A DNA stretch of 64,000 bases from Rubellicoccus peritrichatus (GTDB taxonomy: Bacteria; Verrucomicrobiota; Verrucomicrobiia; Opitutales; Cerasicoccaceae): contig NZ_CP136920.1 in assembly GCF_033100135.1 (NCBI RefSeq), positions 496,001 through 560,000 of the forward strand, in the 5' to 3' direction. The stretch's first letter is position 1, and each line of letters starts with the position of its first letter. The position numbers and the translations under genes are program-made. The notes beneath the pieces were generated by a model. It saw only the letters and a program-made list of their open reading frames with translations. It was not told the DNA's origin and did not search any database. This document shows, in pieces, positions 54,409 to 64,000 of this stretch.

Positions 54409-57051
54409 CTATTCTAAATCAAGGCTGAATGCCTCATCCGTGCTCGTGTTATAAAACCAGCTCGGATTGGAAGTTCCTTCATAATAGAAAAGCCATGCCT
54501 TGTATGTATCACTGTAGAGGAACGGATAATCCTGATCGTTAGTAAAGAACCAACCCAATACTGGAGAATAGAACCATACTGCCTCAGGAGAAAGGCTACT
54601 TGTGAAGAGCCAACTCAATGTAAAGTGATAATACCACGGATCCTGTCTTAAATTCGTAAAACTCAACCATGGAGAGTTTACCCAACCATCATCATCGGCT
54701 TCTCCACCCAAGAGGACTGACTGTATTGGAGGGAAGCGATCCAAGTAGCGAGGGTCATCCTGCATTTCTTGAAGCTGAGAGTTCAAATCTTGATCTGTAA
54801 ACTCACGAATCGTGGCATTTGTGGGTTGCTCGTTAAACATCCCAATAACTAAGAATCCAGTTTGCCAATACGGTCTTTGGCTAAATGTATCGATCAATAA
54901 ATCACTACCATCATCGAATGTTTCCTCAGTTATGAATATTTCAGTGTAGTTGATAAAACCACCTAAATTAGCCATCCGGATGGCTCCCTGCTCTTTTTGC
55001 AATTGGCTGGGGCCTGCTCCATATTTTGAAAAGTAAAGTTGATCTACCAAATTTTGGCGATTCAAGATAATTGCAAAATCATTACCAATGACATCAGGAA
55101 CTGGTCCAAACTGAAAAAGGTACTCAGCTGAATCATACAAATTATTCAAAAGTGTAGTTAAGACCAATGAGCCAGTGACGCCACTCCCTGCATCATCCGG
55201 TCCGAATAATGACAAAGTATAAGCACCAGTACCAATACCATCAACATCCAACAGGAAAGTTGCTGTGCCATTTAATGTGGCTGCAAGCTCTGGATTGATA
55301 ACGAAAAAACCATTACCTGAAGAAGCAATCAATCCACCTGTTTCTGTCCTGAAGGTTAATTGCACGAAAAGAGGACTTGTGATGCTTGCAGTAATCAATT
55401 GAGTGCCGGACACCGTAAACTCATAAGTATCAATCTCTCCGATTGTATCTAATGTACCACTGACCGTGTCTCCAATTGAAATAGGAATGTTATCCGTTCC
55501 ACTTCCACCACCGCCACCGGTATTGAGCGAAAGCATCGCTGCTTGAAATTCTGCAGTGCTAGGGAAACGGCGCAAGACAGTGCTGTAAGCACCAACTACA
55601 CTAGTGCCATCTCCCCCCTGGGAAGATTGACCTATCAATTCTGATAAGAATTCAGTTCGAGTTAGCTTGCCCGTATCCAGTTGATCAACGAAATCGTCTC
55701 TAATGACATCATTTGGAGTGTCTCCAAAAAAGTCCAAGAAGCTCTGAGTCACAAAATCAGCATTGTTTGAGAGAGGATTAAAAACTGCCTGCGTTGCTAC
55801 TCCGGGAGAAGAAAATAAAGTGCCATCATCATACTCAACATTAACAACAAAAACAAAATCACCTGGAACGGTTGTATTAAAAACGACCTCGTAAGGCGGA
55901 TCAGTTAAAATGCTAATTTCAGCACCATTTGCCAAAAAAGTCGCCTTGTTTATATTGTTATTTAGAGGATTGATCGTGGCTTCAATCGTAACATCCTCAA
56001 AAACAGAAAACTGGAATCCATTTACTGGAGATGTAATTATTGCCTCTCCTCCAATAATTTCCGGAGTAACAGTAACAGAGTTTGTCGATGTATCTCCCCT
56101 ACTGTCAGTTGCTTCAACTTTAACAACAAGATCACCAGATGTCGTTGGAGTGTAGGAAGCCTGAAACGGATAAAGGTTATCTGTTTCAATAAGTGTGTCG
56201 TTAATGAAGAATTGAACCTGCTCGATCGAAGAGTTACCAGAAGTCGCTGTAGCAAGGATCTGAAATGGACTATTCAGTTTCACTTGCGTGCCATTAATTG
56301 GTGAAGAAACAATTACATTAGTATCTGAGACCTGCACCGTCGAAATATTACTAATATTTGCCATAGTCCACGTAACAGTAACTCTGTTGTCAGCAGGGCC
56401 TTCAGTAACATCTCGTGCGTAATGAGAGAGCACAAAATAAGAAAATGTGCCATCTTCAGACGAAGAGTCAGTGAACGAAAAAGTCGATGCAGTTGGAGAA
56501 ACTGTTTCACTGACAAAAGTCCCATTTCTAAGGAAAATAAGCCCTCCAAGCGCCTCACCAGCAGAATCAACTGAACCTGCCGCACTAATGACAGTGTTAA
56601 GACTAATGCTTGACCCAGTCAGTGGAGTATCTAACTCCACCAAGCTAGGAATAAAGCCACGATTTGCAACGGTCAGGCCACCCAGATTAGAAGTTGCCGT
56701 TTCACCATCACCATCAGTAACAGTAACTGATATTGCTGGATTACCTTCAGTGATTGCTGGATACACATAGAAACTCTGAGTCCCAGTCTGAACCACTGTG
56801 CCATCAACAGAAAACTCGTAATTCACAATATCGGAACCATCGATATCACGAGCAACTGCGGTGCAAACAATATCACTTCCAAGAAGGAATTGTCCAAGAT
56901 TCCCTGAAGGGTAAGGAGCCGTCAAGCTAACGAAGGGTGCGGTTGCATGCAGCGAACCGGCAGCAATGAAGGATAACAAAGCCCCCGAGAAAACATGCGC
57001 TAGCGAACATCTCCTGAGCCTATTTAATTGGAGACTTTGTAATAATTTCAT
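54409..57051 (-). CDS. Large secreted multidomain protein with Ig-like, PPC-like and W/Y-rich C-terminal regions
   Basis: An 880-residue exported protein with a signal peptide (about residues 1-36). Then follow three to four Ig-like or bacterial-adhesin-like modules (about 40-430; INGTQVKLNSPFQILATA, VNGFQFSVFEDVTIEATI), a helical DUF4214-like region (about 430-505; LTRTEFLSELIG), a PPC-like beta domain (about 519-620; TVSGTLDTIGEIDTYEF), a second DUF4214-like region, and a C-terminal block (about 795-880) of repeated aromatic words: SPVLGWFFTNDQDYPFLY, AWLFYYEG, NPSWFYN. The block resembles a C-terminal module seen in other Opitutae surface proteins and may act in anchoring or sorting. It lies 46 bp downstream of the secretin and is a candidate client or accessory part. 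Confidence 0.75.
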   Translation of the reverse strand: MKLLQSLQLNRLRRCSLAHVFSGALLSFIAAGSLHATAPFVSLTAPYPSGNLGQFLLGSDIVCTAVARDIDGSDIVNYEFSVDGTVVQTGTQSFYVYPAITEGNPAISVTVTDGDGETATSNLGGLTVANRGFIPSLVELDTPLTGSSISLNTVISAAGSVDSAGEALGGLIFLRNGTFVSETVSPTASTFSFTDSSSEDGTFSYFVLSHYARDVTEGPADNRVTVTWTMANISNISTVQVSDTNVIVSSPINGTQVKLNSPFQILATATSGNSSIEQVQFFINDTLIETDNLYPFQASYTPTTSGDLVVKVEATDSRGDTSTNSVTVTPEIIGGEAIITSPVNGFQFSVFEDVTIEATINPLNNNINKATFLANGAEISILTDPPYEVVFNTTVPGDFVFVVNVEYDDGTLFSSPGVATQAVFNPLSNNADFVTQSFLDFFGDTPNDVIRDDFVDQLDTGKLTRTEFLSELIGQSSQGGDGTSVVGAYSTVLRRFPSTAEFQAAMLSLNTGGGGGSGTDNIPISIGDTVSGTLDTIGEIDTYEFTVSGTQLITASITSPLFVQLTFRTETGGLIASSGNGFFVINPELAATLNGTATFLLDVDGIGTGAYTLSLFGPDDAGSGVTGSLVLTTLLNNLYDSAEYLFQFGPVPDVIGNDFAIILNRQNLVDQLYFSKYGAGPSQLQKEQGAIRMANLGGFINYTEIFITEETFDDGSDLLIDTFSQRPYWQTGFLVIGMFNEQPTNATIREFTDQDLNSQLQEMQDDPRYLDRFPPIQSVLLGGEADDDGWVNSPWLSFTNLRQDPWYYHFTLSWLFTSSLSPEAVWFYSPVLGWFFTNDQDYPFLYSDTYKAWLFYYEGTSNPSWFYNTSTDEAFSLDLE

Positions 57052-57097: not shown

Positions 57098-59818
57098 TTA
57101 TTCAGCAATTTGCCGACTAACACCGCCACCTGGGGATACAATAATTGGATTCTGGAAAAGGGAGTTTGGTTCCACATTTTTTAGACGCTGCTTGCTCGGT
57201 GAGCCACCTGGGCTAATCAAATTAGCAGTCACAAAAATGAGGAGATTACGTTTCTGCGAAGTTTCGCCCTTATTTTGGAAAAGGCGTCCAATGAATGGGA
57301 TGTCACCAAGAACAGGAACTTTGTCGTTCACTGTTAGAATCTCTTCACGGGTTAAACCACCAATAACTACCGTTGCACCATCATAAACAGTGACTTCTGT
57401 CCGAACTGCGCGGGTAGAGAAGATCGGCTGGAAGAAACCAGAAGGAACAGTAACCGTTGTGGCACCTGAAATCGCGATACTAGGGCCACCATACTCAACG
57501 AAACCTTCAAACTCTGTCACACGAGGCTCAAGCTTGAGAGAAATATTTTCGTTTTCTTCAACCGTAGGCGTCACTTCCATCTCGACACCAACATTACGAA
57601 CCGTGAAGTCTTGTGGCGTTCCTGCAGTGATGGTAACACCAGCAGAGCCACCGCCATTTGCATTACCTGTTCCAACTTCAGACTCAATGTCTCCAAAGTT
57701 TTCTGGGTAACGAAGCTCTTGAGCCACAACAATTTGTGCGGTTCTTCCAGAAAGAACGGTCAGGCGTGGAGAACTCAACAAGTCACTACCTTCTTCACGC
57801 TGTAGTGCGTTGATAACCAAATCAACATTGACGCCATCAATAATCCCAAATGTTGAGAACAAGCTGGTTGCACCAGTTCCTAAGTCGATTGCATTAGGAA
57901 TTTCCGGAGCAGCGAGATCCGAATTAATGACTGTCTGTCCATTTTGAATAATCTCCAAAGGCAAGGTGCCTGCTCTTGAGATGCTGAAAGCTTGCGAAAG
58001 ACTACGGTTGTCAGTCTGGAATTGAGATTTTGGTGAAGTGATTGGAGCTCCAGTAGTTGGGTTGATACCAGTGGTTACTGAACCACTTCTGATATTCCAG
58101 CTGAAGCCAAGTTCATCCAACGATCCCTGATTCACTTCCATGAACTTTGCCTCAATTTCAACCTGCTTAGGTTGGTCATAACGACGAAGAATATTACGCA
58201 TCTTTTCGAGATTACGAGGAGACTGCGTTACAATCAATTGAGTGCCATCAAATGCCAGACTACTTCCTGGAACACCTTCAAAATCAACACCTGCACGCTG
58301 GAAAAAGCTTTTGAGTCCATCTTCAGTATCACTTGCTGAAGGACCTGCGGAGGGAGCGGCTGCTGGTGCAAATGGATCGGCAGGAGCGCTTCCGCCTCCA
58401 CCACTATCTTCTGCACCAGTCAGACGAATGACAACACCACGTGAGATTGGGAAGAATTCAGTTTCCAAGAGGTTGGTTGTTCCCTTTGTTACGAGAACCG
58501 CTTCATTGCGAATGTCCCACTGAAAACTGACAGTTTCCACTGTAAAATCTAGGATCTTATCTAGCTTAAGGTTGCGCAAAGTAATACTCACTGGTGGATC
58601 TTGACCTGGAGGTGCAATAAGAACCATGTTCACACCACGTTCGTTAAGAGGCAGTGTGGGGTCATCATATTCCACTGAAAGTTCAGAAAGTGTTTCGACT
58701 ACACGAGAAAGAGGCACACCAGAGAACTTTACACTAGGAATTTCAATAGAGCTAATTTTATCAAGCAACACAGTAGGCACTGCCTCTGGTCCAATTTCAG
58801 ACTCACGGTCAAAAATTTGTGGGCGCTGCCATGAACGTGCAATTTCCTGCATCATTTCATCACGAGTCTTCGTGTGATCGAGGTATGAAGTTTCATTAAG
58901 AATCTGTGTCGCTTTTACCTGAAGCGCTTTGGCCGCTGCATTAGTTGGGTCACGTGCCTCAACTTCGCGGAACGTCTGAACGGCACCTTCGATATCTCCA
59001 TAAAGCATTTGAGCTCTACCCTTAACCAAGAGTTGCTCTACGACTTGCTGATTAGCAACATACTCAGGGCTGATGTCTTCTGGATTCTGTCTCCATGGAT
59101 TTTGAGATACTTTTTCGATATCAGCGAGATAAGCTTTCAACTGGTCATCTTCGCCGAGCTTTTCTTCATATTCGTCGGCGATTGCATTAGCCTGGGCTAC
59201 GTTGTTTTTAGCAAGTTCTGCTTCACCTTGATCAACAAGAATCTTTCCACGCATCTCTTGAATGTCTTCGATAACAAAGACGGTTGCAGTATTAAGAGGG
59301 AGGCTTGCCTGTGCCTGGGCGAGAAGATCTTCAGCTTCTTCAGTGCGCCCTACTTTAATTAGCTTCTTAGCTGACGCCAACGCTTCTTCTGCTTGTTCTA
59401 CTTGTGCTTTCTGAGCAGTCGCCTCTGCTTCCAACAATCCATCCAAGCTGGAAGTATCAATTGGTGTTGAGGAAGAAGCTCCCGCTGAGCTCGGAGAAAA
59501 CTCTGACACCGATGCGGCCTGACCATATACTGTTGGTTCTCCAGAACTCTTGCGTTCAATGTCCTTGTTCACTGCGTCCAGAAGATTCTGAACATTGGGA
59601 TCATCGGGATTGATGCGCAGAAGGTCTTCTAGATTCTCCTTTGCTACATTCAAGTCTCCTGCATCACGTGCGCGTAATGCCGCAGACATGAGGCGAATTT
59701 TATCTTTCGTTTCAGTGCTTTGAGCTGCCGCTGAAGGCATGCTAAGCATTGATCCAGCAAGCAAGATAGCCAGGACCAAGTAGGAAACGATGCGTTGTGA
59801 GTTTCCGGGGATTTTCAT
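57098..59818 (-). CDS. Secretin with N-terminal TPR region (Amuc_1098-like)
   Basis: An outer-membrane secretin of the type II/type IV pilus family. From ATG 59818 there are 906 residues with a signal peptide (to about residue 33). Next come TPR-like helices (about 40-300; LRARDAGDLNVAKENLEDLL, VKGRAQMLYGDIEGAVQTF) and N-domains (VKFSGVPLSRVVETLSEL, SITLRNLKLDKILDF). The secretin core follows, with VEIEAKFMEVNQGSLDELGF and VVIGGLTREEILTVNDKVP. The C-terminal signature is VLGDIPFIGRLFQN. An ATG at 59842 adds eight residues. It is the last of five co-directional genes with Amuc_1098-Amuc_1102 order. Confidence 0.88.
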   Translation of the reverse strand: MKIPGNSQRIVSYLVLAILLAGSMLSMPSAAAQSTETKDKIRLMSAALRARDAGDLNVAKENLEDLLRINPDDPNVQNLLDAVNKDIERKSSGEPTVYGQAASVSEFSPSSAGASSSTPIDTSSLDGLLEAEATAQKAQVEQAEEALASAKKLIKVGRTEEAEDLLAQAQASLPLNTATVFVIEDIQEMRGKILVDQGEAELAKNNVAQANAIADEYEEKLGEDDQLKAYLADIEKVSQNPWRQNPEDISPEYVANQQVVEQLLVKGRAQMLYGDIEGAVQTFREVEARDPTNAAAKALQVKATQILNETSYLDHTKTRDEMMQEIARSWQRPQIFDRESEIGPEAVPTVLLDKISSIEIPSVKFSGVPLSRVVETLSELSVEYDDPTLPLNERGVNMVLIAPPGQDPPVSITLRNLKLDKILDFTVETVSFQWDIRNEAVLVTKGTTNLLETEFFPISRGVVIRLTGAEDSGGGGSAPADPFAPAAAPSAGPSASDTEDGLKSFFQRAGVDFEGVPGSSLAFDGTQLIVTQSPRNLEKMRNILRRYDQPKQVEIEAKFMEVNQGSLDELGFSWNIRSGSVTTGINPTTGAPITSPKSQFQTDNRSLSQAFSISRAGTLPLEIIQNGQTVINSDLAAPEIPNAIDLGTGATSLFSTFGIIDGVNVDLVINALQREEGSDLLSSPRLTVLSGRTAQIVVAQELRYPENFGDIESEVGTGNANGGGSAGVTITAGTPQDFTVRNVGVEMEVTPTVEENENISLKLEPRVTEFEGFVEYGGPSIAISGATTVTVPSGFFQPIFSTRAVRTEVTVYDGATVVIGGLTREEILTVNDKVPVLGDIPFIGRLFQNKGETSQKRNLLIFVTANLISPGGSPSKQRLKNVEPNSLFQNPIIVSPGGGVSRQIAE

Positions 59819-59884
59819 CTTTTTGTTCGCGAGAAGCAACATAGCGCGGTTTAGTTCGAAGAGAGTCTTACAAGTAAAGAAGTC

Positions 59885-60817
59885 TCAGTTAAATAGGTTT
59901 TCAAAGCCTTCAGGCAAAGAGGAATTGTTAGGTTGTTGATTATCCCCAGATGAGCTCTCGGGAGTTGTTTGAGTTATAGTTTCAGGCTGAGTCTCGTAGA
60001 GAGTCCGCACCTCAGATGGATCAAGGTAAGGTGCAGCTTTCTCGACATTCACAGAGTTATTGTCAAAATTAAAGTCAAGTAAGGTGAAAGTTGCATCATT
60101 GCTTTGATGTGTATCACCTATTTCGGCCCATTTAAACTCTGCTGGTGCATATGGGTCCAAAGTTCTCATTAAAATGGTCAATTTTCCTTCAAGGAAGAGC
60201 TTACTTTCAGTTGTAAGTGTGACCTGACGACCATCTTGCTCCAAGTCAGCAATAACAACTGTCGGGACACGGCGCATGGTCCCCTCGATATCATCAACAA
60301 TAAGAGGATACGTGACATTGATAACCTCAAAGCCATGCTCCGGAAATTTGTCACCCATTTTTCCACGGATCGATTCACCCAGTTTGGTGTTATAAAATTG
60401 GACTATAGATTCTTCCATTGATCCATCTTGGGCAAGGAAGAAGGCCTCAAGCTGAACCCTGAAAAGATCGCGTTCGATCTTAACAAGCTGAAGACCAAAA
60501 TCAGGAAGCGGCTCAACTGGAGTCACCGGCTTGAACACCAATTCCCCAGCAATAGGGTCCCAGAAAATCTGTGGTGGAGTAAAGATATCGTATACCTGCA
60601 ACCCCTCGGTGTCTTGGGCCTGAGGATCTCCCCACACAGGATTATCCACCAAAATGGCTGGTGGCTGAACCTCAGAGTAAGCCGAACCGGAAGGTTGTTG
60701 TGTCAATAAGGCATCGGCCGAACGAACCTCGCCTGAGCGCATCAGGAAAAATGCGATACCTCCGGCAAGAGCCAGAAGACCAACAACTAGAAGAATTTTA
60801 TCGTAAAGTGCTTTCAT
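59885..60817 (-). CDS. Amuc_1099-like membrane-anchored periplasmic protein
   Basis: A 310-residue bitopic protein with one N-terminal membrane helix (ILLVVGLLALAGGIAFFL) and a periplasmic part. The mature region has PPQIFWDPIAGELVFKP, LQLVKIERDLFRVQLEAFF and LTTESKLFLEGKLTILMRT, and a Ser/Thr/Gln-rich C-terminal tail. Its position between the Amuc_1100-like gene (14 bp upstream) and the secretin gene matches Amuc_1099. It may connect the inner-membrane platform to the secretin, by analogy with PilP/GspC. This is a context-based assignment. Confidence 0.7.
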   Translation of the reverse strand: MKALYDKILLVVGLLALAGGIAFFLMRSGEVRSADALLTQQPSGSAYSEVQPPAILVDNPVWGDPQAQDTEGLQVYDIFTPPQIFWDPIAGELVFKPVTPVEPLPDFGLQLVKIERDLFRVQLEAFFLAQDGSMEESIVQFYNTKLGESIRGKMGDKFPEHGFEVINVTYPLIVDDIEGTMRRVPTVVIADLEQDGRQVTLTTESKLFLEGKLTILMRTLDPYAPAEFKWAEIGDTHQSNDATFTLLDFNFDNNSVNVEKAAPYLDPSEVRTLYETQPETITQTTPESSSGDNQQPNNSSLPEGFENLFN

Positions 60818-60831
60818 GGTACCGTCCTCGG

Positions 60832-61827
60832 TTAGGCATCGATTTTGACCTCGATGTACTCTACAACAACCGAGAATTGGGATATATTTTGATCTACCAC
60901 AGGTTCTTGATTTTCTTCGATAGCAGCAGTCTGCTCTTCAGTATCCTGGTCACCGCCAATATCTCCGAAAATCGCAAAAATGCTGTCTGTGTCATTATTG
61001 GATGCAACCTTTGTTGAATCATCAACTGGCTTAACTTCCACACTGCGGACAACCAAAGGTAACTCAAAAGAAGCAATGTCCTTTAAAAATGCTCTTAAAT
61101 TCTGGGTGTAACCAGTGAAGCCAATCTCAAAAGCCATGGTTTCAACAGCTCCCTTAATGGATGCAGTTTCTGAACCAATCCAAAATTCATCTGCTTCCAG
61201 GGCTTCTGATGAGCCTCTGGCATCTACGGCCCCTGCTGGTCGCTCAATGACCACGGGCTCACGTTTCACACTGACCATTGATTGAGGGCCAGTAGCCAAC
61301 AACTTGCGCAGCAAATAATTCAAGATGATCTTCTGCGTGAAGACATCACTGATGTTTTCTTCCGGAGGCGGCTCTCCTTCACCAGAGGCCAAGAAGCGTG
61401 AAAAGCCCCAATTGAAATCTTCAGGAATAGCAACTCCAGGTTCAGCAGCATTGAATGGCGTGATCAGCTTTGCATCCTTATCAAGTTCGTTTTTGTAAGC
61501 CAGCAAATCATAATACATGTCTGTGCTGCTTAGCGGTGGACGGCTTTCTAAAATAGCTGGATTACGCCCTTCTGTGGCGGCAATCTGCTGGCTCAACGTC
61601 GACTTAAGCGCCTCTATGTTTTCCACCGACGCGGCAAGATTGGCATCAGTCGGAGCTGGTGAAAGTGCGAGGGCAGATTTAAGATTCCGCTCAGCAGTGC
61701 TTAGTTTCTTGGTAGAAGCTTCTGATTTGCCTGCGGCAAGAAAAATGAAGACAACTCCAGCGACGAAAAGTAGCAGCAGCACAATAAGAGTGCTACAGAA
61801 TGCAGGATATTTTTTAAAGAAATTCAC
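60832..61827 (-). CDS. Amuc_1100-like PilO-type protein
   Basis: A 331-residue protein with a short cytoplasmic N-terminus, one membrane helix (STLIVLLLLFVAGVVFIFL) and a coiled coil (about 35-95). A periplasmic ferredoxin-like domain ends with FSVVVEYIEVKID. The same plan, a long insert-rich PilO-like fold, is known from Akkermansia Amuc_1100, the pilus-associated outer-envelope protein with host effects. The sequence is not close enough for a function call, but position and size agree. It is 21 bp downstream of the PilM-PilN fusion gene. Confidence 0.72.
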   Translation of the reverse strand: MNFFKKYPAFCSTLIVLLLLFVAGVVFIFLAAGKSEASTKKLSTAERNLKSALALSPAPTDANLAASVENIEALKSTLSQQIAATEGRNPAILESRPPLSSTDMYYDLLAYKNELDKDAKLITPFNAAEPGVAIPEDFNWGFSRFLASGEGEPPPEENISDVFTQKIILNYLLRKLLATGPQSMVSVKREPVVIERPAGAVDARGSSEALEADEFWIGSETASIKGAVETMAFEIGFTGYTQNLRAFLKDIASFELPLVVRSVEVKPVDDSTKVASNNDTDSIFAIFGDIGGDQDTEEQTAAIEENQEPVVDQNISQFSVVVEYIEVKIDA

Positions 61828-61848
61828 CTTTGCGAGAGAGTCAGATTT

Positions 61849-63486
61849 TTAAAGGGGTTTTTCAGGATTTGTAACCAGTGTAAACTTAAACTGCAGGATA
61901 CGGGGCACAGTATTGTCAAACTTGATGTCTGCGACAGAGTTGATAAAGTCAGAACCTTGGAAACGTTCAAGAAGAGAGTTAACACGTGATGCTGCCGATT
62001 GAGCACTTTTAGTTGGATTATCAGGATCAAAATCCTTGATCAGCATTCTTCCTGACAATTCAAGTCGGTTTCCTGAGGATCGATTGAGATTCAAATCCTC
62101 AAGCCAAACGTCTTGAACGTCTTGTAGCTGCTCCTGAAGATCAGAAAAGAAAATAATCCAGTTTGAACGTGAATTAACAAGTGTTTCCAAGCTGGCAATG
62201 TCCTTACGGATTGCCTCAGCTTTTCCAGTATTTGCAACAATTTCGCCATGAAGCGATTGCAACCCAGGTACACGCGCCTGTAGCTCCTTCGCATCTTTTT
62301 GCACAGCACCAGAAGTTTGCGAATATGCCAAAATCGGTGGTACTGTTGCCAATGCCAATGCTGCTGCTGCCACCACGAGAAACGGTTTTTTCTTCTCGAA
62401 GGCCATTTCACTGGCAAGCGACTGTGGAAGCAAATTGATGCTGACAGGATCGGTAAGCACGTTGCGTGATGCCTCACCAACGGCTTCGGAGAGATTAAAA
62501 CGATGGCTTTCCAGTAAGGCCGTATCAACACCACTACCGATTGCGACTTTTTCAAAACAATTGAAGTAGTCTACGTTTACTTTCTGAGTTTCACTGAGGT
62601 ATTCAGAAAGCCCGGGAAGTAATGAACCACGCCCTGCCAGAAGAATTCGAACGGGGGCCTTGGTTCCTTTTTGGCGGCGATAATTGACAATCGAACGGGT
62701 AATTTCCTGGCTCAAACGCTTTTGAAAAGCCTGGGCATTGTTCTGCAAAATCTGAACACTTGGGTGATCCGGTTCATAGCTGGTTTGACCACCAAAAAAG
62801 GCTGTTTTGATCTGCTCAGCCTCCTGGAATGGCTTTCCGAGATTATCCGCCAGGTTCTGAGTCAGCGAATTACCGCCAAGGGCAATATTCCGAACGAAGA
62901 AACCTGATTCATTAACGAAAAGTAAATTCGATGCACGTGCACCAATGTTGATGAGCAAGGTATCTTCGCTATCATCACCGTAGTTGGCACGGTAAGCATT
63001 ATAATCCAGAATGGAGGACGCCTGAACACTTTCGGTGACAAGGCCTTCCCGCCCCATTGTCTGGCAAAAGCGATTAATGACTTCTGACTTAATGGCAATG
63101 AGCAAAACCTCAGTTTCCACTCCATCATCAGCGATCACCTGGTTATCCCAAACAACCTCCGAGAGTGGATAAGGAATATTCTGCTGTGCCTCAAAAGCAA
63201 TAATCTGCTGCTGCTTCGCCTTTTCGACGTGAGGAACTTTTATACTCTTCGTCAGTAGCTGATAACCGGGCGCAATCAAAGTTGCTTTGCCCTTATAGCC
63301 GCTACTGGTCAGTGATTTTACCGCTTGAACCGTGGCATGAAGCCAATCGTCTTCAATGGAGAAATCATATTCCAGATCAACCGCCTGAAAATCATCAAGG
63401 GTAAGTGAGCCATTGTTAGTGCTATAGTACGAGGCCGAAACATGGCTTGCACCGCAGTTAACAATCAGGGATTTGGAGGAACTCAT
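61849..63486 (-). CDS. PilM-PilN fusion protein (Amuc_1101-like)
   Basis: A 545-residue protein that joins two partners of the type IV pilus platform. Residues 1-345 are an actin-like PilM (LIVNCGASHVSASYY, TLLINIGARASNLLFV, ILLAGRGSLLPGL). Residues 348-545 have the plan of PilN: the PilM-binding peptide SINLLPQSL (349-357), a membrane helix (368-388), a coiled coil and a periplasmic beta domain (SGNRLELSGRMLIKDF). In most bacteria PilN's INLLP peptide docks into PilM from a separate gene. Here the docking is covalent. It begins at ATG 63486. Confidence 0.82.
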   Translation of the reverse strand: MSSSKSLIVNCGASHVSASYYSTNNGSLTLDDFQAVDLEYDFSIEDDWLHATVQAVKSLTSSGYKGKATLIAPGYQLLTKSIKVPHVEKAKQQQIIAFEAQQNIPYPLSEVVWDNQVIADDGVETEVLLIAIKSEVINRFCQTMGREGLVTESVQASSILDYNAYRANYGDDSEDTLLINIGARASNLLFVNESGFFVRNIALGGNSLTQNLADNLGKPFQEAEQIKTAFFGGQTSYEPDHPSVQILQNNAQAFQKRLSQEITRSIVNYRRQKGTKAPVRILLAGRGSLLPGLSEYLSETQKVNVDYFNCFEKVAIGSGVDTALLESHRFNLSEAVGEASRNVLTDPVSINLLPQSLASEMAFEKKKPFLVVAAAALALATVPPILAYSQTSGAVQKDAKELQARVPGLQSLHGEIVANTGKAEAIRKDIASLETLVNSRSNWIIFFSDLQEQLQDVQDVWLEDLNLNRSSGNRLELSGRMLIKDFDPDNPTKSAQSAASRVNSLLERFQGSDFINSVADIKFDNTVPRILQFKFTLVTNPEKPL

Positions 63487-63578
63487 GAAAAAGAAAAATG
63501 ATGCTTATCGAAACTGACTGAGGTTGAAGCAAGGAAAATAGACCCCAGACAACAATCCTATATCACTTAAAATGCGAT

Positions 63579-64000
63579 TTACTGCTGTTCTTTTCGAATA
63601 AATGCAGCTGGTTCACGCTGATCGATGTAAGGATTGGGCGAAAGGTAGGTTGGAACCAGAATTCCGTCGGTTTCCGACAGCTTCCCGGAGGCTTGAGATT
63701 TGAAACCGTTGATGGAATCCAAGTTGGTAAATCCGGAAGAAAAACTTTTCTTGTTGTCGACAAGGAGATTGAGCTGCTGCCCATTGACCTCTAACTCAAC
63801 TATCCAGTACTTCGGCTCTTTCGGCAAATTGTCTCTTTGCACAACGTCATATGGCATCCAAAAGGCGATTTCCTTCTTTTTGCCAGTTTCAAGAGTCACA
63901 AGAGTCGCCTCTGCCTGATAAAAGGTAAAGGGGCTGGCCCCCTTACTTTCATATCCGAGCGTCAAGGTGACAGTGATATTGTCGACATAGCGAGGATTCG
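63579..64000 (-). CDS. Amuc_1102-like protein, partial
   Basis: The frame is open beyond the right edge, so the N-terminus is missing; 140 codons are visible. The start of the visible part, NPRYVDNITVTLTLGYESKG, continues into a beta-rich domain and ends with a short tail PAAFIRKEQQ. In Akkermansia a protein of this kind (Amuc_1102) opens the same gene order. The recognition rests mainly on gene order and length, so the function stays open. It is 92 bp upstream of the PilM-PilN gene. Confidence 0.6.
   Translation of the reverse strand, partial: NPRYVDNITVTLTLGYESKGASPFTFYQAEATLVTLETGKKKEIAFWMPYDVVQRDNLPKEPKYWIVELEVNGQQLNLLVDNKKSFSSGFTNLDSINGFKSQASGKLSETDGILVPTYLSPNPYIDQREPAAFIRKEQQ

Follow-up and report, generated by a model that had tools for sequence, protein, structure and literature searches.

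A PilM-PilN fusion and a PilO-like Amuc_1100 homologue from Opitutales point to a type IVa pilus-like machine encoded by the Amuc_1098-Amuc_1102 gene cluster

Introduction

Much work on Akkermansia concerns the host-active protein Amuc_1100, which is usually labelled an outer-membrane pilus protein. As presented in PMC13174399 (citing Davey 2023), a role of the MUL2 locus (Amuc_1099-Amuc_1102) in glycan uptake and attachment is reported for Akkermansia only. The same 2026 paper describes MUL2 as conserved in Akkermansiaceae and Verrucomicrobiales and leaves Opitutales unmentioned. The Amuc cluster, the role of MUL2 in Akkermansia and the conservation in Verrucomicrobiales are thus already published. 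A cluster of this kind in Rubellicoccus peritrichatus, a member of Opitutales (Cerasicoccaceae), raises the question of which machine the five genes encode and which motor drives it.

Results

Gene layout

The DNA analyzed is a stretch of 64,000 nucleotides (contig NZ_CP136920.1, positions 496,001 to 560,000), referred to as the window. Five open reading frames on the minus strand were found where the first-pass annotation had placed them, in the order 1102-, 1101-, 1100-, 1099-, 1098-like, and both the identities and the order given there hold:

63579..64000+ (-): Amuc_1102-like (MUL2A-like) protein, 218 aa (ORF; family profile against 7DSZ)
61849-63486 (-): PilM-PilN fusion, whole ORF, 545 aa
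62450..63486 (-): PilM part of the fusion, residues 1 to about 346, Amuc_1101-like (MUL2B-like) (PilM_2, Amuc_1101_fam, M. xanthus PilM)
61849..62449 (-): PilN part of the 545-aa fusion, with INLLP motif at residues 350-354, membrane helix and periplasmic domain (motif alignment, M. xanthus PilN, PF05137)
60832..61827 (-): Amuc_1100-like, PilO-like protein, 331 aa, with one N-terminal membrane helix, coiled coil and periplasmic alpha/beta domain (NCBIfam, 6LAD profile, model)
59885..60817 (-): Amuc_1099-like protein in the PilP position, 310 aa, with N-terminal membrane helix and all-beta domain (family members against NF042425, model)
57098..59842 (-): Amuc_1098-like TPR-secretin (PilQ role), 914 aa, with signal peptide (Secretin, weak TPR, Amuc_1098_fam)

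The cluster had been called complete within the window. All five genes are present, but the 1102-like gene starts 236 bp past the right edge and reaches its full length of 218 aa only in the genome. Beyond it, in divergent orientation, lie TolC-, HlyD- and MacB-like efflux genes; 1102 is therefore the first gene of the block, with neither pilB nor pilC beyond it. Downstream of the secretin gene are an 880-aa Ig-domain protein and then a 5'-3' exonuclease, and in several relatives a gene of roughly exonuclease size directly follows the secretin. The Ig-domain (Big_7) protein between secretin and exonuclease (54409-57051, minus strand) ends in 88 W/Y-rich residues that recur at 28 other places in the genome. 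They possibly represent a sorting or anchoring domain, a candidate cargo tag.

All NCBIfam scores were under the curated equivalog cut-offs (392 against 750 bits, 12.5 against 50, 75 against 180 and 356 against 650), and the proteins are therefore divergent homologues rather than formal equivalogs; the cut-off is a threshold for giving names and no measure of homology. The cluster is a correctly identified, divergent member of the known Amuc_1098-Amuc_1102 cluster. It has the same five genes in the same order as in Akkermansia, and each product is homologous to its Amuc counterpart, Amuc_1099 through relatives only. It differs from the Akkermansia cluster in that the sequences are only distantly similar and that the host belongs to Opitutales.

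The Amuc_1101-like protein is a PilM-PilN fusion

The second gene had been annotated as PilM. The PilM domain was found (PilM_2, 5.5e-25 in Pfam; Amuc_1101_fam, 4.4e-106 in NCBIfam), but the gene does not encode PilM alone. After this domain the 545-aa protein continues with DPVSINLLPQSLASEMAFEKKKPFLVVAAAALALA, that is a cytoplasmic INLLP motif followed by a membrane helix, and this segment has the look of a PilN N-terminus. In a profile search of the PDB, positions 2-346 of the family profile aligned to M. xanthus PilM (6.4e-61) and positions 351-559 to residues 3-220 of M. xanthus PilN, nearly its full length (2.8e-8). The profile also matched 5EOU, an engineered PilM-PilN construct.

The PilN motif [I/V]NLLP was present in all but one of 41 aligned fusion proteins, with the Leu and Pro nearly invariant, and the motif together with the membrane helix after it hardly varies; this alignment spans the whole phylum and takes in locus L096 from genome G024, a close relative of G113. 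Among the proteins from 80 named loci, 79 were of sufficient length; the motif was found in 77 of these and a close variant in one of the remaining two. PF05137 was matched in 8 of the 41 fusion proteins, at best with 8.9e-4. Judged from these alignments, the product is a natural PilM-PilN fusion. In the open-access literature we found no paper naming Amuc_1101 together with PilN, and the fusion may have been described elsewhere before.

GspL of type II secretion systems is itself a fused actin-like and membrane protein. This counts for reading the block as a type II secretion variant that exports enzymes, in which the PilM-PilN protein would be GspL, 1100 GspM and 1099 GspC. The overall layout resembles GspL/M/C/D, the secretin scored 165 bits to GspD against 126 to PilQ, and weak T2SSM-type matches occurred in single relatives. 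However, the PDB search with the fusion family profile matched PilM and PilN chains and no GspL.

The Amuc_1100-like protein is predicted to have a PilO fold

The 331-aa protein matched Amuc_1100_fam with 6e-21 (NCBIfam). Searched alone against PDB sequences it gave no match, and a family profile was required. The profile of the protein and 29 relatives matched the solved Amuc_1100 structure (6LAD) with 3.7e-56, and the 1102-family profile matched solved Amuc_1102 (7DSZ) with 9.8e-33; both profiles include Akkermansia-type members, and these matches confirm the family of the set, not the window protein alone.

A structure check of the 60832-61827 product, as proposed by the first-pass annotation, gave the expected result. 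The AlphaFold2 model (pLDDT 84), compared with solved structures, matched ten Amuc_1100 chains first, with E-values from 5e-8 to 3e-7 (best 4.7e-8). Its only next matches were PilO of P. aeruginosa and M. xanthus, with 4.7e-4 (2RJZ) and 9.5e-4 and a probability of 1.00, whereas GspM was not matched among the solved folds, which again speaks against a type II secretion variant. The model thus assigns a PilO fold to the Amuc_1100-like protein. The crystal structure of Amuc_1100 has been likened to type IV pilus and type II secretion proteins (review PMC13119276). As the PilM-PilN gene lies before 1100 and the secretin gene after it, the order reads pilMN-O-x-Q, which is the canonical pilMNOPQ order.

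The 1102-, 1099- and 1098-like proteins

The module might instead be an adhesive, non-retractable surface structure with 1100 and 1102 as filament subunits, in line with their designation as pili-like proteins. Immunofluorescence placed Amuc_1100 on the exterior of A. muciniphila cells (PMC5332112), and PMC13174399 describes Amuc_1102 as resembling an archaeal pilin in structure. Against this stands the predicted PilO fold of 1100 with its one N-terminal membrane helix. Moreover, 1102-like proteins mostly begin with ordinary Sec signal peptides. The one in the window has an apparently normal Sec signal peptide, and neither a pilin-type N-terminus nor an N_methyl match was found in it. Since its signal peptide looks normal and a pilin signature is missing, 1102 is taken as a putative accessory envelope protein and not as a pilin. 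The genome also encodes 56 true N-methyl proteins elsewhere, and we consider a filament built from 1100 and 1102 very unlikely.

The 310-aa product alone matched Amuc_1099_fam with 0.08 only, while 19 of the 30 aligned members of its family matched Amuc_1099_fam (NF042425), the best with 4e-98. Its relatives and its position therefore suggest an Amuc_1099 identity. The structure check proposed for this product (59885-60817) was successful only in part: the model had a pLDDT of 84, with a confidently modelled all-beta domain and one N-terminal membrane helix, but neither the PDB sequence-profile search nor the fold search against solved structures gave a match, and no PilP fold was detected. 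The assignment of the 1099-like protein as the PilP equivalent rests on position.

The secretin matched Pfam Secretin (2.5e-36), Amuc_1098_fam (3.6e-117) and, weakly, TPR; no AMIN domain was found in the Pfam search. A second tandem secretin-like gene was seen after the Amuc_1098-type secretin in seven loci from several lineages (L104, L105, L107, L109, L112, L113 and L115).

Distribution and conservation of gene order

The Amuc_1101 family was detected in 277 of the 289 Verrucomicrobiota genomes sampled (E<=0.001), and a PilM-type (Amuc_1101) gene in 258 of them at E<=1e-20, a cut-off set to leave out ordinary actin-like proteins. Synteny across the phylum, which the first-pass annotation had proposed as a check, was found throughout. 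Gene order was identical in all 41 loci read, which came from many families; these loci were chosen by their PilM or 1100 gene, and the figure covers order, not presence. The profile detected 1102 in 38 of the 41. Of 45 named loci whose flanks were long enough, 44 also had the full order. Conservation of gene order is far beyond chance.

All but a few vaguely named records among the 80 named loci belonged to Verrucomicrobiota in the broad sense, including Opitutia, Verrucomicrobiales, Limisphaerales/Pedosphaera, Chthoniobacteraceae, Kiritimatiellae and Lentisphaerae. The nearest named relatives in this set were from Cerasicoccus (59-61%). In a PilM-PilN tree a branch with full support has the order of the window, Opitutales, on one side. 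Where several members of a family had been sampled, they grouped together in most cases; both features fit mostly vertical descent. The block is therefore phylum-wide, non-gut bacteria included, and the gut protein is part of an old general-purpose machine. This agrees with the earlier suggestion of an old machine rather than a gut adaptation, which was partly published in 2026, with respect to Akkermansiaceae and Verrucomicrobiales (PMC13174399).

A distant candidate motor operon

The genes for PilB, PilC and PilT had been suspected beyond the right edge of the window. The TolC/HlyD/MacB-type efflux neighbours rule out this location, and motor genes were found near the cluster in none of 121 locus neighbourhoods. 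A pilB-pilT-pilB-pilC operon lies at genome positions 1,705,549-1,711,515, 1.15 Mb from the cluster. No secretin or alignment genes were found in the 20 kb read at this operon. Six other module-bearing genomes carry the pilB-pilT-pilB-pilC set in one stretch, and in Akkermansia-type genomes PilB, PilB and PilC are together, with the strongest PilT-family genes elsewhere.

PilC scores separated into orthologues (at least 330 bits) and paralogues (at most 286 bits). A PilC orthologue was found in 37 of 37 tested genomes with the module compared to 7 of 33 without it (Fisher p about 4e-13; the genomes are related, so that p-values overstate independence). Most of the seven are fragmented assemblies; in addition to the seven, G086 has one that is cut by a contig end. 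PilB2 orthologues (at least 580 bits) were found in 34 of 37 genomes with the module and in 7 of 33 without; the three module-bearing genomes in which none was found are G046, G195 and G212. PilT scored above the curated cut-off in all 37 module-bearing genomes. Within Opitutales, PilC was present in 11 of 11 genomes with and 1 of 9 without the module.

The module-motor link rests on this co-occurrence. It could also be that the type IV pilus-like module pairs with other motors, and that the co-occurrence with PilC reflects genome reduction or shared ancestry. Some module-less genomes (families f8 and f10) lack many systems, and other GspE/PilB genes are also present in the R. peritrichatus genome. 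However, large complete genomes of the Opitutales families f3 and f5 have both module and PilC or neither, the two being jointly absent in some members. Furthermore, genome G284, which is without the module, has kept PilB and PilT beside a truncated PilC, like a decaying operon. A pairing with other motors is therefore not likely, and the missing motor is probably the distant pilB-pilT-pilB-pilC operon.

This operon with its PilT-type ATPase, which accompanies the module, also argues against a type II secretion variant, as do two other secretin clusters in the genome that are of true Gsp type with their own E, F, L and M. Together with the profile and fold matches to PilM, PilN and PilO, this makes the type II secretion reading improbable.

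Discussion

We propose, with a probability of about 0.8, that the block codes for the envelope module of a type IVa pilus-like machine capable of retraction: a fused PilM and PilN, PilO, PilQ, a protein at the position of PilP and, in addition, the exported 1102. The analysis provides the components, the fusion, the modelled PilO fold, the conserved order and the co-occurrence with a retraction-capable motor. The assembly across the envelope, the extension and retraction of an N-methyl filament, and attachment and polymer uptake are inferred.

On the cytoplasmic side, the PilM domain would bind the INLLP segment of its own protein, or that of a neighbour, and couple to the motor. The periplasmic domains of PilN and of 1100/PilO may form an alignment ring, which 1099 would bridge to the TPR-secretin pore. 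A pilus of N-methyl pilins encoded elsewhere (56 candidates) would run through this pore, extended and retracted by the PilB-PilT-PilB-PilC set. For a free-living member of Opitutales, the machine would most likely serve for surface attachment and the pulling in of polysaccharide or other polymers, by analogy with the Akkermansia MUL2 loci and with the fucoidan uptake of marine relatives (PMC13174399).

Compared to the type IVa PilMNOPQ systems of P. aeruginosa and M. xanthus, the module shares homologues of PilM, PilN and PilO and a secretin in M-N-O-x-Q order, and PilB, PilC and the retraction ATPase PilT are encoded in the genome. It differs in that PilM and PilN are one protein, that an all-beta protein without a match takes the place of PilP, which has a beta-sandwich domain, that the secretin carries N-terminal TPR with no AMIN detected, and that 1102 is an extra protein.

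The fold, the gene order and the neighbouring PilM-PilN fusion suggest that Amuc_1100 serves as PilO in a pilus motor complex. There is about an even chance that Verrucomicrobiota ancestrally evolved their own type IVa pilus subtype, with fused PilM-PilN, Amuc_1100 as PilO, a new all-beta protein replacing PilP, a TPR-secretin and a dedicated pilB-pilT-pilB-pilC set. This subtype would be the main polymer-grabbing device of the phylum, and the host-signalling Amuc_1100 would be an inner-membrane alignment protein. If so, 1100 and 1101 should assemble into a ring at the inner membrane, and MUL2 phenotypes should depend on the distant pilB, pilT and pilC genes. With the fusion, a PilO assigned by structure in a distant relative, and a candidate motor operon, the "pili-like proteins" become a specific machine that can be tested.

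The genome holds further systems of related kinds. A sole PilM in the genome would argue for the motor pairing, but this argument does not hold, since another module, which is split and whose actin-like protein is highly divergent, is located at 5.75 Mb (L199, genome 5747080-5752247). Its five genes (352, 226, 199, 189 and 787 aa) end in a secretin and resemble pilM-N-O-P-Q. Among the genomes tested, strong matches to its first gene were found only within Opitutales, including genomes without the fused module or this PilC. The presence of this second module in genomes that lack this PilC means that it cannot account for the co-occurrence of the fused module with PilC. The two type II secretion clusters lie at about 605-617 kb and 3.947-3.958 Mb (L042 and L045). 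Both have long secretins; one of these, 1428 aa in length, contains many repeated N-domains. The 56 N-methyl (prepilin-type) proteins are far more numerous than a single pilus together with two or three secretion systems would seem to require.
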